A stretch of DNA of 64,000 bases from Candidatus Eiseniibacteriota bacterium. Lineage in GTDB: Bacteria > Eisenbacteria > RBG-16-71-46 > JAFGJU01. Positions 25,007 to 32,560 of the stretch are shown here, piece after piece. The position numbers and the translations under genes are program-made. Within the stretch, counting starts at the first letter, position 1, and each line of letters opens with the position of its first letter. The notes beneath the pieces are model-generated. The model was not told the DNA's origin. It did no database searches and saw nothing but the letters and a program-made list of their open reading frames with translations. The stretch covers positions 1,604,242 through 1,668,241 of the forward strand of contig CP070702.1 of the NCBI GenBank assembly GCA_020349905.1. The letters are read 5' to 3'.

Positions 25007-25233
25007 CACGGCGGGTCAGGGTTCAGAACCCTCCTCGAACGGACGATATATGACAGTGTGGGGCAAAGACTCACGAAGCAGCGCTCTCGCCCAGTCGAAG
25101 CGAGTTGGGGTGAAGACTTACGAAGCGGCGCATGTCGCCCGGTCGGAGTGAGTTGGGGCGAGGGCGGTGGATGAGGAAGTGCAGCGTTGGCGGGAAACAG
25201 GGCGCCCGGCACAGCCCCGGAGAGGCTGAGGTC

Positions 25234-25866
25234 ATGATTGCCTGTCTTGGACGTTTTCTGAAGCACGGTCTTTACATCGTTCCCATTGTCGTTGGCGCGT
25301 ATCTCTGGGCCAGCGGCCGACCCGTAACTCACGGGCCGGGAGTCCTTGTTCCGGACCAACCCGTCCAGCAGGTGGTGAGCGAGCCAAAGGGGTTCATACA
25401 CGGGGACTACCTCGTCTCACATCTGGCCAAGTTCGAGATCACCGCGCGAGTCCTGTCTCGAAAGAACTACTCCCTGGGCCGCGAATCCAACCTGTCTCCG
25501 GTGGACCTGGCCCTCGGATGGGGACCGATGTCGGACGAGCAAGTCCTGGAGAAGATATCCATTTCACAGGGCGGCCGCTGGTACAGATGGTGTGTCAAAG
25601 AGTTTCCCATCCCCCAGCGCGACATAGAAAGAAACAGCGCGAACATGCACATGATACCATCGACACCAAGAGTCAGAAGGCAGCTCAGACAGGTGAGAGA
25701 AGGTGACGTCATCAGGTGCAGGGGCTATCTCGTGGAGGTGAACGCTTCGGATGGGTTTGCCTGGAAGAGTTCTCTCACCAGAAATGACACGGGTGACGGT
25801 TCGTGCGAGATAGTGTGGGTCGAGGAGTTCAACATACTGGAGAATCCCCGTGTGCACCTTGACTGA
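25234..25866 (+). CDS. Conserved membrane-anchored protein of unknown function
   Basis: 210 residues from the ATG at 25234 (GGAGAGGCTGAGG upstream; an earlier ATG at 25171 and the frame start at 25132 are less likely). One N-terminal membrane helix (about 10-28), then a domain with GRWYRWCVKEFPIPQRDI, SANMHMIPSTPRV, GDVIRCRGYLVEV and SSLTRNDTG…CEIVWVEE. I recall this set of motifs from widespread uncharacterised bacterial proteins, which usually have this one-helix plus exported domain layout. The GDxIRCRGYLVEV segment looks OB-fold-like. It lies between a terminator and the trp leader promoter, so it is probably transcribed alone. Function unknown. Confidence 0.6.
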   Translation: MIACLGRFLKHGLYIVPIVVGAYLWASGRPVTHGPGVLVPDQPVQQVVSEPKGFIHGDYLVSHLAKFEITARVLSRKNYSLGRESNLSPVDLALGWGPMSDEQVLEKISISQGGRWYRWCVKEFPIPQRDIERNSANMHMIPSTPRVRRQLRQVREGDVIRCRGYLVEVNASDGFAWKSSLTRNDTGDGSCEIVWVEEFNILENPRVHLD

Positions 25867-25899
25867 GTATGGGAAAGGGCACGGCAACACAGAATCGGC

Positions 25900-25928
25900 T
25901 TGACTTCCGACCATCTTCGGTGTATATT
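25900..25928 (+). promoter_or_regulatory. Sigma-70 promoter of the trp-attenuated operon
   Basis: TTGACT (25900-25905), exactly 17 bases, then TATATT (25923-25928). Predicted start near 25935, giving a short untranslated stretch before the leader-peptide ribosome site AAGGAG at 25945-25950. Confidence 0.8.
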
Positions 25929-25958
25929 ATTGATACGAACCTGAAAGGAGAGCGTGAA

Positions 25959-26063
25959 GTGAGACTCTCGAATTCCCCTGCGACCGTGCGTTCAGTCACC
26001 CGCTCCTGGTGGAGCTGGTGGTGGCAGAACTGTGGCCGTAGTGGGGAGAGAGTCCTCGAGTAG
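25959..26063 (+). CDS. trpL: Tryptophan leader peptide
   Basis: A 34-codon frame starting GTG at 25959, eight bases after AAGGAG, ending TAG at 26061-26063. Five of six consecutive codons, 26007-26024, are TGG for Trp (residues read WWSWWW). Trp is the rarest residue in most proteins, so this clustering in a short frame upstream of a Trp-synthesis gene and before a U-tract hairpin is diagnostic of transcription attenuation by ribosome stalling. The peptide itself needs no function. It precedes, by 107 bases, the serine-kinase-like gene rather than the trpB gene directly. Confidence 0.9.
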   Translation: MRLSNSPATVRSVTRSWWSWWWQNCGRSGERVLE

Positions 26064-26126
26064 ACGAGCGAACGACCTACAAGCTAACGGGAGTCACCCA
26101 CTATGGCGAGCCATGGTGGGTTTTTT
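25999..26126 (+). promoter_or_regulatory. trp attenuator with mutually exclusive hairpins
   Basis: Three competing pairings can be drawn. Region 1 (CCCGCT, 25999-26004) pairs with region 2 (AGTGGG, 26040-26045), looping out the Trp codons. Region 2 extended (CCGTAGTGGG, 26036-26045) pairs over 10 bp with region 3 (CCCACTATGG, 26097-26106), forming the antiterminator. Region 3 pairs with region 4 (CCATGGTGGG, 26111-26120) to form the terminator. Stalling at scarce charged tRNA-Trp would cover region 1 and free region 2, allowing readthrough; abundant Trp lets 1:2 and 3:4 form. All three structures are seen directly by complementarity; behaviour is inferred from the E. coli model. Confidence 0.85.
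26096..26126 (+). terminator. Attenuator terminator hairpin
   Basis: A 10-bp stem (26097-26106 with 26111-26120; one T-G wobble), a CGAG loop, then six T residues. It sits 34 bases after the leader stop codon and 45 bases before the next start codon. Confidence 0.9.
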
Positions 26127-26170
26127 GTTGCCCGCACCGCGGACCCTGTTTCGAAGGGGAGCTTTGGATA

Positions 26171-27013
26171 ATGGAGAACCAAGATGAACTCAAGATAGGC
26201 CAGCTACCACGGCTGAGCATCATGCCCATAGGGGACATCCTGGTTCACGAGGAGCCGGACGTGGGACGCGTCGCGCGGCTTATCGATTGTTTCGGGCAAC
26301 AGGGCATTCTCCGGAACCCGGTGGTCGTTGCGGTTGTGGACGGCAATCCCCGGCGGCTCCTTCTCGATGGCACAAACCGCAGCGCGGCGTTGACGAAGCT
26401 GGGTGTGGCGGACGTTCTCGTTCAGGAGGTCGAACTGGAGGACCGGGGGCTTATCGTTTCCCAGTGGCACCACGCGATCGAGAATCTGGCCAGCGACGCT
26501 CTGCGCGAGCACCTGGCCAGGGTGCCAGGGCTGTTTCGCATCAACAGCGGCAGCGGCGCTGAGGACGGAAACCGGAACTTCGTATGCAGGATTGGGTTCA
26601 GCGACGGCGCTGTTGCCAGCCTGGCCGGCACGGGTGACCTCCTGCAGGACGCCGGGCTGCTGCGACGGTTCACGAGCCTGTACTCCGGTTCGTCTCAAAT
26701 GGACCGCGTGAGTTACACGAATCCCGCCGACCTGAGAAGGAACTACCCTCGCCTTTCGGCTCTAGTCAGCTTCAGGCGATTCACGAAAGCAGACATCGTG
26801 AGGCTCACCGACGCGGGCGAGCGACTGCCGAGTGGAATTACGCGCGTGCTCCTGCCGAAGCGAGCGCTCAATTTCAATCTGCGCCTTGACGTTCTGAAAT
26901 CCGGCCTCTCCACGGCTGAGAAGAACGAGTGGCTACAAAACACGATTCGTCACAGGGTGATGAACAAGTCGATACGTTTCTACCGGGAGCCCACGTTCTC
27001 TTTCGACGAATGA
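26171..27013 (+). CDS. SbnI/SerK-like ParB-fold free-serine kinase (predicted)
   Basis: 280 residues with a ParB/sulfiredoxin-fold N-terminus, but with the motifs of the serine kinases SbnI and SerK rather than partition ParB: HEEPD (26-30, with candidate catalytic Glu), DGTNR (66-70) where ParB has GERR, and QEVELEDRGLIVSQWHH (85-101). No helix-turn-helix DNA-binding domain is seen. The C-terminal half (YSGSSQMDRVSY; GERLPSGITRVLLPKRALNFNL) agrees with what I recall of SbnI, and the length is close (SbnI about 254). SbnI and SerK phosphorylate free L-serine to O-phospho-L-serine. It is the first gene after the trp attenuator and is followed after 66 bases by TrpB2, a reported O-phosphoserine user. 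Assignment is by remembered motifs; the phosphate donor (ATP or ADP) cannot be told. Confidence 0.75.
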   Translation: MENQDELKIGQLPRLSIMPIGDILVHEEPDVGRVARLIDCFGQQGILRNPVVVAVVDGNPRRLLLDGTNRSAALTKLGVADVLVQEVELEDRGLIVSQWHHAIENLASDALREHLARVPGLFRINSGSGAEDGNRNFVCRIGFSDGAVASLAGTGDLLQDAGLLRRFTSLYSGSSQMDRVSYTNPADLRRNYPRLSALVSFRRFTKADIVRLTDAGERLPSGITRVLLPKRALNFNLRLDVLKSGLSTAEKNEWLQNTIRHRVMNKSIRFYREPTFSFDE

Positions 27014-27079
27014 TTCTCTCTCATGCCCGTCACCGGCGGCAGGAGGACTTGAGGGTTCACTCAACACAAGGAGGTAGTT

Positions 27080-28444
27080 ATGGACAGGACCAAGATCCTA
27101 CTGGGCGAAAACGAGCTGCCCAGACAGTGGTACAACGTGCTGGCGGACCTGCCTTTTCCACCTGCGCCGTACCTTCATCCGGTCACGTTCGAGCCGATAA
27201 CGCCACAGGACCTGGCTCCGCTCTTTCCCCAGGAACTCATCAAGCAAGAGGTCAGCCAGGACCGTTTCGTGGACATCCCGGACGAGCTTCTAGACATCTA
27301 CTCGTTGTGGAGACCGACGCCTCTGTACAGGGCTCGGCGGTGGGAGAGAGCGCTGGGCACACCTGCGAGGATATACTACAAGTGGGAAGGCGTCAGTCCC
27401 CCCGGGAGTCACAAACCCAACACTGCCGTGGCCCAGGCCTACTACAACAAGAAGGAAGGCATCAATCGTCTCAGCACGGAAACCGGAGCCGGGCAGTGGG
27501 GCAGTGCGCTGGCCTTCGCGTGCAACATTTTCAACATGGAGTGCAAGGTCTACATGGTGAACGTGAGCTACCGTCAGAAGCCCTATCGTCGCATCCTTAT
27601 GGAGACGTGGGGAGCGACCGTCGTTCCCAGCCCCAGCAAGGACACGAACTACGGGCGAGCACTGCTCGCTGAGAACCCGGACGCCTCGGGGAGCCTCGGC
27701 ATCGCCATCAGCGAGGCGGTAGAAGACGCCGCGCAGCGAGACGACACGAAGTACTCGCTGGGCAGCGTGCTCAATCACGTGCTGATGCATCAGACAGTCG
27801 TGGGTCTGGAGGCCAAGAGACAGCTGGAAATGGCCGGTGACTATCCGGACGTCCTGGTCGGTTGTGTCGGCGGCGGAAGTAACTTCGGCGGTTTCTTTCT
27901 GCCCTTCGTGCCGGACAAGCTGAGCGGAAAGGCCGAGTCCCTGCGCATCGTGTGTGTTGAGCCAGAGGCCTGCCCGACTCTCACCGGAGGCCTGTACGCG
28001 TTCGACTGGGGTGACACTGCGAAGACGGGGCCCATAGCCCGGATGCACACGCTTGGCCACGGCTTCGTTCCCCCGCCCATACACGCAGGCGGCCTGCGTT
28101 ATCATGGCATGGCGCCGATAATCTGCGCCCTCTATGACCGAGGACTGGTGGAGGCGATAGCCCTGGCACAGACGAAGGTCTTCGAGGCCGCCGTCAGCTT
28201 CGCCCGGGCCGAGGGATTCGTTGTGGCGCCTGAGACGGCTCACGCGGTGAAGGCAGTCATGGACGAGGCGCTCAGCTGCAAGGAATCGGGAGAGGCCAAG
28301 GTGATAGCGTTCAACAGCAGCGGGCACGGCCACTTCGATCTGGGAGCGTACGAGTCCTTCCTGTCAAACGAGCTGGAGGACTACAGGTATCCCACTGAGC
28401 AGATCAGGGCCTCGCTGGAGGAGCTGCCCAGAATAGACCAGTGA
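27080..28444 (+). CDS. trpB2: TrpB2-type tryptophan synthase beta chain
   Basis: PLP enzyme of 454 residues joining indole to a serine-derived aminoacrylate to make L-tryptophan. The PLP lysine is in [10 protein letters not shown] (K112), the substrate loop reads ETGAGQWG (134-141) rather than the ETGAGQHG of TrpB1, and the phosphate-binding loop is GGGSN (264-268). The long N-terminal extension ([13 protein letters not shown]…PAPYLHPVT) and overall length are typical of TrpB2, which does not form the standard complex with TrpA. No trpA is nearby. Archaeal TrpB2 enzymes have been reported to prefer O-phospho-L-serine over serine, which fits the kinase-like gene upstream. A strong AAGGAGGT precedes the ATG. 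Expression should follow tryptophan supply through the attenuator. Confidence 0.93.
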
Positions 28445-28457
28445 TTCCTGCCGAGCT

Positions 28458-28487
28458 CGGGCGCCGCACGTTGTGCGGTCGCGCCCG
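28458..28487 (+). terminator. Strong hairpin after trpB2, no U-tract
   Basis: CGGGCGC (28458-28464) pairs with GCGCCCG (28481-28487), with an inner GC-rich stem around a GTT loop. A second hairpin (GGGCCAGC 28528-28535 with GCTGGCCC 28541-28548) follows. Neither has a run of T, so they may mark the transcript end or protect it rather than act as intrinsic terminators. Confidence 0.45.
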
Positions 28488-28680
28488 GCGTGTGGTGAAA
28501 GGAGTTACTGCGCACAAGTAAGCCAAAGGGCCAGCATCGGGCTGGCCCTCGGTCTCGTCTACGTCTATGTTTTGAGTAAGCCTTCCAGCCCGAACAGACC
28601 GGTCTGTCGAGCTGGACAGGGCACCAGAGCATCTATTAGAAAGACGCAGCACCCGGCAGAAGCAATCGATTCGCCGCGGC

Positions 28681-29256
28681 CTACCTGCCGTCGTGGTCCA
28701 GGACGTGGTAGATCAGCAGGCCCGCCACGCCGATCTCCAGAAGCGTCTTCGCGGTATCGAAGACGGTCCGCTTCTCAAGCCTCGCGCGCAGGGCGTCAAT
28801 CTCACGCTTCTGGTCCACCACCGTGTTGTTCATCTCCTGCTTCTCGGCCTCGAACTTTGCAGTGAGTTCCGACTCCTGCTTCTTCAAGGCGTCATCCACG
28901 ACCAGTCGCAGGTTCGTTATCTGGCTGCTGCTGCCCTGGGTCGCGGTTTCCAGGTTGGTCATTCCTGCCTGGATAAGGCCCATCTGTTGGCCAATGAGAG
29001 CGACTTCCTCTTCGATGGTCCCAAGCTGATCCGACATTGACGCAAACCTGAGATTGAACGAATCCGCCATGCTCTCCATCCTGGGCAGAAGCCTTGCCTG
29101 AGCCTTCGCCGCACCCACGTTGGCTATCTCCTGTGACTTCTTGTTGAGTATGTCGTTGATGTCGGCTCGAGTGAGAGGCGGCGCCGCCAGAGCGGAGCTC
29201 GCCACGATAAGAGAACCGAAGAAGATCAAAGCCAACAGAATAGTCATCCTTCTCAT
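28681..29256 (-). CDS. Exported coiled-coil protein with C-terminal membrane helix
   Basis: 191 residues: signal peptide 1-24 (ALA-APP), a long helical region with heptad-like spacing (about 40-160, rich in Q, E, K and L), and a hydrophobic stretch near the end (TLLEIGVAGLLIYHVLD, about 170-187) with the tail HDGR. The layout suggests a periplasmic coiled coil held in the membrane at its C-terminus. No family recognised and no catalytic motif. It is transcribed toward the trp operon and stands alone; its ATG is preceded by AGGAGGTGAA on the minus strand. Confidence 0.7.
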   Translation of the reverse strand: MRRMTILLALIFFGSLIVASSALAAPPLTRADINDILNKKSQEIANVGAAKAQARLLPRMESMADSFNLRFASMSDQLGTIEEEVALIGQQMGLIQAGMTNLETATQGSSSQITNLRLVVDDALKKQESELTAKFEAEKQEMNNTVVDQKREIDALRARLEKRTVFDTAKTLLEIGVAGLLIYHVLDHDGR

Positions 29257-29647: not shown

Positions 29648-29737
29648 ATAGGAGGTCGGGTTGAGGGAAGGCCGCATTTGCCTGCCTTCTTGACTGCTCC
29701 TGGAAATCAGTGTCGTTCTTGTTCCCAGAGGTGTGAA

Positions 29738-32560
29738 TTGCCGCGTTCCGGAACCTCTGCCACTCTTCTCCTCTCGGTGCTGTTGGCCGTCTCTGCGCCT
29801 GCGGTTGCAGTGGCCGCCCCCGTTCACACCACCTATCTCTGGCACATGCATCAGCCCATCTACTGGCCCGAGCGGAGTACGTGGTATCCCTCGAGGTACG
29901 AGACCGCCTACGAGACGATAACGCTAGGACACTCGGAGAGCGACGTATACGGGATATTCAACAAGGACGACCGGGTCCACGACTACCAGGATTATCCAAA
30001 GACGGCCGTGGCCTCGATTCTGGACATCCCTGACGCCGGTGCTCAGGTGAGCTTCGCGTCGGCGCTCATAGAGAACGTCAAGAGCCTGGCCGACGCCGGC
30101 TGGAACGGAGGACGCTACGCCCCGGATTGGTACAGCGACTACCGCACGGCGCGCTCGTGGACTACGTCGGGCGGACGCTCCAGGCTGGAGCAGGTCCTGG
30201 TGGCGGCACATCATCCCATCGCCCCGCTGATGGACGAGAACGCGTTGCGCAGGGAGATTCAAGTCTCGAAGGTGGCTCACGTGGTGGCGTGGGGGGACAC
30301 CAACTTCTCGAAGGGCTATTTCCCGGCCGAAACCTGTTTCTCCGAACGCATGATTCCCGTGCTGGTGGAGCAGGGAATCGAGTGGGTCATCGTGGCAGAC
30401 GTGCACATATCCCGGGCGTGCCAGGATTACCCGTACGCGGCTCACGAAGACAATTGCGACCCCCCCAATCCGGCAGACCAGTTGAACCCGGCCCAGGGTT
30501 ACTACGAGAGCATCTCCATCAGCAGGGGAGTGACAGTGAAGACGCCGCCCCCGTTCGGGTTCAGGCCTCACTACGCGCGGTACGTGGAGCCCGGCTCAGG
30601 TGTTGCGCACCTCATTAAAGTGGTTCCCGCGGCGAACGCAATGAGCTGGAACGAAGGCTACGGCCTGTACGGAACGGGAGAGGTGGACGCCATAGCTGGT
30701 TACAACGACCCGGCCCGTCCCATGCTCATCCTCTTTGCGCACGACGGGGACAACGCGTGGTCGGGTGGCTACTCGTACTACAACGAGAACGTCACCAACT
30801 TCTGTCACGCGGCGGTGTCAAGCGGGTACGAACCCACGACGATAGCCGAGTACCTCGCAGACCATCCTGTCGCTGTCGACGACATAGTGCACGTCGAAGA
30901 CGGCGGGTGGGTCAACGCGGACGGCGACTTCGGTTCACCTCAGTTCATAAACTGGAACTGGCCGCTGGTGGACGCCAGCGGGAACTTCGACATTCCAGGT
31001 GGTTGGACCGAGGACGAGCGGAACTGGGCGGTGCTCACTGCCGCCCAGAACCGGGTGGAGACTGCCGAGGCCGCGGCGGGGACCGAACCCGACCCTTCCA
31101 AGATATTCGACCCCACTATGGGGGCCAACAACGTCGAGAAGGCGTGGCACCACCTCCTCTCCGGATACGAGAGCGGCTACATGTACTACGGTACGTCGCT
31201 CGACATGGAAGTTAAGGCCACGCTGGCGGCAAACGCGGCCGTCCTTTATGCGGACCCGGTCATCGCAGGAGGGGCCGACACCGTTGCTCCCACCGTCTGG
31301 CTTCCGCAGCGCCTTCCCTGGAATCCCGGAGGAAGGGGCGGAGGTTCGCTCTGGGGTTATCCCAGCGGGGAAGGGGCCGCGATGCCGAGCGACTTCTGGG
31401 TGTGGACCTTCGCCTACGACGTCTCTGGCCTGGCACGAGTCGATTTCAAATACAGGGTAGACGCCGACGGCGTCAATTCCATGTCGGACGACGAAAACGA
31501 GGTCTACGCCGGCGGCCCCGGAGTAGGCCCGTGGCAGACACTCGCCATGACGTGGAGGGATTTTCCGGAAGGCAACTTCTTCGGAGCCCCTGACATCAAT
31601 TTCTCTGTGCTCCCCGTCTACATCGCCGACGAGTACTACGTTCACGTGACTGGACTCTCTGAGGTCTTACTGGACTACTACGTGGAGGCCGAGGACTCGC
31701 ACGGCCGCGTCAAGCGCAGTCCGATCCAGCACGTCTGGGTCGGAGAGGCGTCAGGCAGCGCGTCCCACGTCATGGACGGCCAGCTGGATACGAACTCCGT
31801 GCTCGTGGCCTCGAGCGCGGCCCTCAACCTGTATGCAGACTGGGACGGCGAGTATCTCTACGTTGCCACCGAAGGTGTCGGGAGCACCTCGGGCTGGGAT
31901 CACTTCGTGGTCCTGGGCGTAGACCTTTCGAGTCCTGTTTCCGCGCCGTGGGCGAAGACCGGGACCGTGGCGGGCAGGGTGCTCTACCTCGGAAACGAAA
32001 ACTCCAACAACTGGTCCGGCTGGTTCGACGAGCTCGAGACTTTGCTCTCGGACGCCGTCGAGAGCGCGTCCGGAGACTTTCTGGAGGGCCTGGTGAGACT
32101 TGAGACGCACCTGGGCAATCCCCTCCCGGACGGCGTGTATCTGGCGGTGGCCGCCTATCAGTCTCCTGACGGCGGTTCTCTCAGCGCGCAGGCTCCGTCC
32201 GGCAACGGTAACGGAAACGTCGAGGAGGCCGAGTACGCCTATTTTCCTCTGGGGGTGGTGGGAGTCGAGCCGCCACTCACTTCTCCGGTGCCCATTGCCG
32301 TGCGCGCTCACCCCAACCCCTTCAAGACCAGTACAAACATTGAATTCCACGTTTCCCGTCCTCAGACGGTGACCCTGGAGATATACGATGTTCGGGGAAG
32401 GCGGGTCAGAGCTATGAGCAGCGTCGCGACCCGGGGAGTGCACTCGACTACTTGGGACGGTCGCGACGAGAACGGGATAGACGTTTCACCGGGAGTTTAC
32501 GTGATTCGGCTTCGCGGTGAAGCGGGCGGTCGTTGTGCGAAGGTCGTTCTTCTAAGATGA
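29738..32560 (+). CDS. Secreted GH57-like glycoside hydrolase with FlgD-like sorting domain
   Basis: About 940 residues. The N-terminal domain is GH57-like: YLWHMHQP (about 33-40), PAETCFSERMIPVL with candidate nucleophile E198, and LILFAHDGDNAWSGG with the candidate acid Asp near 336. This family cleaves alpha-glucans and related polymers. A beta-rich middle follows, and the C-terminus (about 860-940: AHPNPFKTST…LEIYDVRGRRV…WDGRDENG…SPGVYVIRL) is the FlgD-Ig/T9SS type A-like module used for export or cell-surface attachment in FCB bacteria. The TTG at 29738 has AGAGGTG upstream and gives a clean signal peptide; the frame also offers a TTG at 29678 with a longer cysteine-containing leader. 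Confidence 0.8.
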   Translation: MPRSGTSATLLLSVLLAVSAPAVAVAAPVHTTYLWHMHQPIYWPERSTWYPSRYETAYETITLGHSESDVYGIFNKDDRVHDYQDYPKTAVASILDIPDAGAQVSFASALIENVKSLADAGWNGGRYAPDWYSDYRTARSWTTSGGRSRLEQVLVAAHHPIAPLMDENALRREIQVSKVAHVVAWGDTNFSKGYFPAETCFSERMIPVLVEQGIEWVIVADVHISRACQDYPYAAHEDNCDPPNPADQLNPAQGYYESISISRGVTVKTPPPFGFRPHYARYVEPGSGVAHLIKVVPAANAMSWNEGYGLYGTGEVDAIAGYNDPARPMLILFAHDGDNAWSGGYSYYNENVTNFCHAAVSSGYEPTTIAEYLADHPVAVDDIVHVEDGGWVNADGDFGSPQFINWNWPLVDASGNFDIPGGWTEDERNWAVLTAAQNRVETAEAAAGTEPDPSKIFDPTMGANNVEKAWHHLLSGYESGYMYYGTSLDMEVKATLAANAAVLYADPVIAGGADTVAPTVWLPQRLPWNPGGRGGGSLWGYPSGEGAAMPSDFWVWTFAYDVSGLARVDFKYRVDADGVNSMSDDENEVYAGGPGVGPWQTLAMTWRDFPEGNFFGAPDINFSVLPVYIADEYYVHVTGLSEVLLDYYVEAEDSHGRVKRSPIQHVWVGEASGSASHVMDGQLDTNSVLVASSAALNLYADWDGEYLYVATEGVGSTSGWDHFVVLGVDLSSPVSAPWAKTGTVAGRVLYLGNENSNNWSGWFDELETLLSDAVESASGDFLEGLVRLETHLGNPLPDGVYLAVAAYQSPDGGSLSAQAPSGNGNGNVEEAEYAYFPLGVVGVEPPLTSPVPIAVRAHPNPFKTSTNIEFHVSRPQTVTLEIYDVRGRRVRAMSSVATRGVHSTTWDGRDENGIDVSPGVYVIRLRGEAGGRCAKVVLLR

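Follow-up and report, generated by a model that had tools for sequence, protein, structure and literature searches.

Ribosome-mediated attenuators of the E. coli trpL type are built from a leader peptide whose Trp codons stand in tandem, from three alternative pairings (1:2, 2:3 and 3:4) and from an intrinsic terminator. Among ParB-fold proteins, SbnI requires Glu20 and Asp58 for its kinase activity (Verstraete 2018, as cited in PMC9641203), and the role of SerK lies in cysteine synthesis (PMC5120207). TrpB2 enzymes are described as O-phosphoserine-dependent tryptophan synthases (Busch 2014, as cited in PMC11917138). Finally, the indole salvage operon trpRBA of Chlamydia, as presented in PMC7755916 and PMC6504234, combines Trp-controlled synthase genes with salvage in the absence of a full pathway. 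Features of these systems meet in the stretch of DNA analysed here (64,000 nucleotides, hereafter the window), which belongs to a Candidatus Eiseniibacteriota genome of 2.69 Mb, assembled in one contig and 90.65% complete. The locus very probably carries a ribosome-mediated attenuator responsive to charged tRNA-Trp, by which an operon of a serine kinase and TrpB2 for indole-dependent tryptophan synthesis is controlled. While this class of attenuation is already known, its target and the kinase-TrpB2 pairing are new; the open-licence papers found mention neither this pairing nor trpB2 under Trp attenuation.

The promoter, Shine-Dalgarno sequence, leader, TGG codons and T6 tract listed in the original prediction were all found in place (Table 1). 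The leader peptide, VRLSNSPATVRSVTRSWWSWWWQNCGRSGERVLE, is served by the Shine-Dalgarno sequence AAGGAG, reads from GTG at 25959 to a stop codon at 26061, and has TGG codons at 26007, 26010, 26016, 26019 and 26022, i.e. five within six codons. An in-frame ATG at 25869 precedes the promoter, so that the GTG is the likely start; in the homologous locus of a second genome of the phylum (genome G016, locus L007) an ATG occupies the equal position. The short leader ORF with its Shine-Dalgarno sequence and tandem Trp codons is conserved there as well. Rfam covariance models, Trp_leader included, gave no match to the element above gathering threshold, and the sub-threshold matches were spurious.

Table 1 Features of the attenuator and of the genes behind it, in window coordinates
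Feature	Coordinates	Strand	Basis or remark
Sigma-70-type promoter, TTGACT-N17-TATATT	25900..25928	+	sole promoter-like match in 25600-28700
Trp leader peptide ORF, 34 codons, GTG start	25959..26063	+	Trp codons at 26007-26024 (WWSWWW)
Strand 1 (corrected), pause/anti-antiterminator hairpin with ~26038-26058	25960..25982	+	pairing probability; homologous pairing in L007
Strand 2, 5' arm of antiterminator	26036..26045	+	2:3 duplex, -23.5 kcal/mol
Strand 3, shared arm, CCCACTATGG	26097..26106	+	identical in G016
Strand 4 of terminator, with T6	26111..26126	+	3:4 hairpin, -18.3 kcal/mol; terminator scan
ParB-fold, probable free-serine kinase (SbnI/SerK-like), 280 aa	26171..27013	+	NCBIfam; profile against PDB
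TrpB2 (trpB_rel), tryptophan synthase beta-like, 454 aa	27080..28444	+	NCBIfam; PDB TrpB2 chains

Chance controls confirmed a complete tryptophan attenuator, as had been predicted, at a level well above chance. Five TGG codons in six were seen at a single place in the window and were absent from all 50 dinucleotide shuffles, and none of 1000 shuffles formed a 2:3 duplex as good as the real one (shuffle mean -11.4 kcal/mol). A detector demanding a short ORF, a Shine-Dalgarno sequence, at least three Trp in six codons and a terminator returned four matches when run on 1.49 Mb of other loci; among these was one genuine element (L078, see below). In the GC-rich locus L036 the 2:3 duplex did not differ significantly from shuffled sequence, as 107 of 1000 shuffles were as good.

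Folding of 25935-26130, which the original prediction had named as a check, spoke in its favour (z = -2.67). Of the pairings it proposed, the antiterminator (2:3) and the terminator (3:4, with strand 4 at 26111-26120 and T6 at 26121-26126) stood and are mutually exclusive; the 1:2 pairing had to be moved. The strand 1 first proposed (25999-26004) can base-pair with 26040-26045, but the folds do not favour this pairing, G016 does not conserve it, and the strand had probably been placed wrongly. Folding prefers a longer pairing further upstream, in which strand 2 joins ~25973-25982, with ~25960-25969 and 26047-26058 as an extension (most of the paired bases have a probability of ~1); the G016 locus forms a homologous pause hairpin. 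When the fold was computed for a ribosome halted on the first Trp codon and a polymerase just past strand 3, before strand 4 is made, the 2:3 helix was the best fold in all four loci tested. Once strand 4 is present, the equilibrium model favours 3:4 even with a stalled ribosome; therefore, the choice between 2:3 and 3:4 must be kinetic. Kinetic switching is usual for ribosome-mediated attenuation. In five of six loci, strand 2 follows the last Trp codon at a distance of 9-18 nt; in the exception, L078, the computed duplex has extra upstream pairs and begins 3 nt after that codon. When the 3' edge of the ribosome is placed by the standard footprint, it would reach no further than ~26035 at any Trp codon of the window leader, leaving strand 2 free.

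Homologous leaders were found in the window's phylum and beyond. G016 keeps the promoter (TTGACT-N17-TATACT, at the equivalent position), a 34-codon leader (MTISNPNMGTRACASFWCGWLWRSCDHSGRRAMK; Trp region WCGWLW), the stems and the gene order, with a kinase identity of 64%. A scan of genome contigs with TrpB2 yielded 80 loci, L078 and L118 among them. In L078 (Longimicrobiales, Gemmatimonadota; genome G047), the leader MKSKGIHTWWWWRSHPSGGRGVDFFD and a terminator are followed by the kinase and then trpB2, and the stem sequences differ from those of the window yet still pair. The predicted order of genes behind the attenuator, a ParB-fold kinase-like gene and then trpB2, is present in the window, G016 and L078. 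A Trp leader lies immediately 5' of trpB2 in L036 of the window's phylum (MLRISRNRWWWCSRQSSGRSVGARIT) and, together with a terminator, in L118 of Caldithrix. In L073 (genome G009, window's phylum), an attenuator with a Trp leader lies 5' of trpE; it was the only one among the four trpE loci inspected first, and a further 29 trpE-family matches of the phylum, some below cut-off, showed none. Across six loci, strand 3 ranges from CCCACTATGG-like to CCCGCTGCAG-like and strands 2 and 4 change with it: at positions 4, 7 and 8, strand 3 swaps A/G or T/C, with matching swaps in both partners. The exception is L118, where 2:3 is broken at positions 7 and 8 and the helix comprises six pairs. The Trp codons and coordinated stem changes by which the prediction was to be judged in homologous loci were thus present in G016, L078, L036 and L073. 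The range of ribosome-mediated trp attenuation would hereby include, in at least three lineages, trpB2 genes with or without the kinase.

Most other trpB2 loci from the scan had no such leader, which marks the element as rare. When a covariance model was built from the leader, it retrieved just its two training loci in the phylum, and its matches elsewhere were weak (E 0.015-0.5); on inspection, the two best of these lacked a convincing Trp leader. At L159 (G239, Gemmatimonadota), which encodes a kinase homologue of 51% identity, a promoter-like and a terminator-like stretch were present upstream, without a Trp-rich leader.

The ParB-fold protein is likely a free-serine kinase, judging from homology and conserved residues. 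A profile of 12 kinase homologues matched PDB chains of SbnI over nearly the full length (E = 3.7e-29 to 1.7e-26) and SerK at 4e-14. Its residues E27 (Glu of the HE motif) and D66 (Asp of the DG motif) align with the two kinase residues of SbnI and are invariant in the 12 homologues. The window protein alone matched NCBIfam SbnI at 4e-14, below cut-off; with 52.6 of 350 bits for the curated SbnI and 28.3 of 380 bits for the curated SerK equivalog, it is to be regarded as a relative and not as an equivalog of either. An AlphaFold model built from four sequences reached a pLDDT of 42, and no evidence was drawn from it. The kinase is encoded in 28 of 47 genomes of the phylum; in the fetched stretches it adjoins trpB2 in the window and G016 only, both with the leader. 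A protein scan of genome contigs with the kinase alone gave no matches. In Chloroflexota, a kinase gene was found directly 3' of trpB2 (L122:6454-7335 and L097:6471-7295); in L122, an apparent tryptophanyl-tRNA synthetase gene (trpS), identified by eye, lies 5' of trpB2.

The second protein is a clear TrpB2, above both NCBIfam cut-offs (PRK12391, 5e-216, 717 bits for a cut-off of 366; TIGR01415, 6e-194, 645 for 519) and with the PLP lysine motif SHKPNTA. It may also accept serine as substrate. In Dehalococcoidia, T-boxes lie 5' of trpB2 (L120:4689-4952, L135:4201-4455, and, identified by eye with TGG at the expected specifier position, L093:4560-5000). In L093, a short Trp-rich ORF (MIIWQRRWWPPRPKEK) is situated between the T-box and trpB2. 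Second copies of trpB2 were also noted: one (G000:C1:1439037-1440308, L160; ~48-50% identical), which lacks a Trp leader, is followed by homocysteine S-methyltransferase/MTHFR genes, and that of G016 contains one TAA within the matched stretch. Elsewhere in the window, 29678-32560 encode a glycosyl hydrolase 57-like protein with a C-terminal FlgD_ig/Por_Secre_tail sorting domain.

The window bacterium appears to be without a normal tryptophan pathway. Neither trpA nor trpE was detected in its genome or in G016, nor trpC in the window genome; in the same pathway-gene searches, controls were positive in 14 of 14 reference genomes. At the completeness given above, absent genes could have been missed. 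G047, which carries L078, has trpA, so the kinase-trpB2 operon is not confined to genomes without the pathway. As for O-phosphoserine, the kinase and SerC (TIGR01364) never occurred together among the 47 genomes of the phylum: 28 encoded the former and 8 the latter (seven above cut-off and one strong fragment), with no overlap (Fisher p=2.4e-4, a statistic that ignores kinship in a phylogenetically clustered distribution). The exclusion recurs inside families f2 and f10. One genome (G032) has leader and trpB2, no kinase, and serC; a Caldithrix genome with leader-trpB2 and no kinase (G048) gave no full serC match. Most sampled Gemmatimonadota genomes lack TIGR01364-type SerC, which makes the comparison uninformative there, and outside the window's phylum SerC carries no information as a general predictor. 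Within the phylum, the exclusion suggests non-orthologous replacement of SerC by the kinase as O-phosphoserine source.

From the computed leader, stems, covariation, gene order and homology, and the non-detection of trpE, trpC and trpA, the following model is proposed. When Trp is short, the ribosome would stall at the Trp codons, strand 2 would stay free and pair with strand 3, and the polymerase would read through. When Trp is plentiful, the ribosome would reach the stop codon and cover the end of strand 2, allowing 3:4 to form and transcription to terminate. The kinase would then convert free serine into O-phospho-L-serine, and TrpB2 would join this with indole to yield tryptophan. Indole is probably imported, as genes for making it (trpE, trpC, trpA) were undetected in the window genome. 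That the route from serine through O-phosphoserine to tryptophan, fed by scavenged indole, forms one unit under Trp attenuation, and that the kinase generally replaces SerC in the phylum, seems to us a reasonably probable extension of the model.

Other readings of the locus have to be weighed against Trp attenuation of a tryptophan-synthesis operon. It is hardly credible that a Trp-rich ORF lies by chance beside the ordinary terminator of an upstream gene: the element does follow immediately on a same-strand ORF (25132-25866), but it has its own promoter, a conserved 34-codon leader and a conserved 2:3 pairing, a rare combination. More serious is the case of a real attenuator in which the kinase is merely carried along with trpB2 and has another role, either regulatory or the supply of O-phosphoserine for cysteine, as SerK has in Thermococcus (PMC5120207). 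Of the 28 genomes of the phylum with a kinase, 26 showed no trpB2 beside it in the fetched stretches, and for this reason the role of the kinase family must be broader. However, in two phyla the gene next in line after a Trp sensor is the kinase, a supported clade of the tree joins the kinases of the window, G016 and Gemmatimonadota, and the presumed kinase product is the substrate of TrpB2 enzymes; on balance we regard a separate role as unlikely.

Still less can be said for an operon of indole detoxification or degradation, with TrpB2 using serine or making another indole product. Although searches for trpA, trpE and trpC detected no indole-making genes, induction on Trp shortage through Trp codons fits synthesis and not disposal, as do the T-boxes on other trpB2 genes, which makes such an operon very improbable. 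Trp attenuation of kinase-trpB2, as originally interpreted, is thus the supported reading. The accompanying claim that the leader proves a place of the ParB-like gene in tryptophan metabolism was too strong in its wording, but the assignment itself gained from trpB2 linkage in further lineages, from SbnI/SerK homology including the catalytic residues and from the SerC exclusion. It would give the orphan ParB-fold kinase family a metabolic role that does not depend on homology alone, suggests a possible origin of O-phosphoserine for TrpB2 in bacteria without SerC, and predicts that tryptophan synthesis in the window bacterium depends on indole.

Compared with the known systems, the window element differs from the E. 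coli trpL type in its target, kinase-trpB2 instead of trpE, and in its architecture, with a 34-codon leader and strand 2 inside the leader ORF 3' of the Trp codons. The kinase shares near full-length profile homology and the two kinase residues with SbnI/SerK, a group whose known roles lie in the synthesis of staphyloferrin B or cysteine, whereas it is paired with trpB2, Trp-controlled and far below the curated cut-offs. Unlike other TrpB2, that of the window stands under Trp-codon attenuation together with a dedicated kinase, in a genome with trpE, trpC and trpA undetected. Finally, while the Chlamydia operon, according to PMC7755916 and PMC6504234, consists of trpBA under control of TrpR and YtgR, the window combines trpB2 and a kinase with a ribosome-mediated attenuator.
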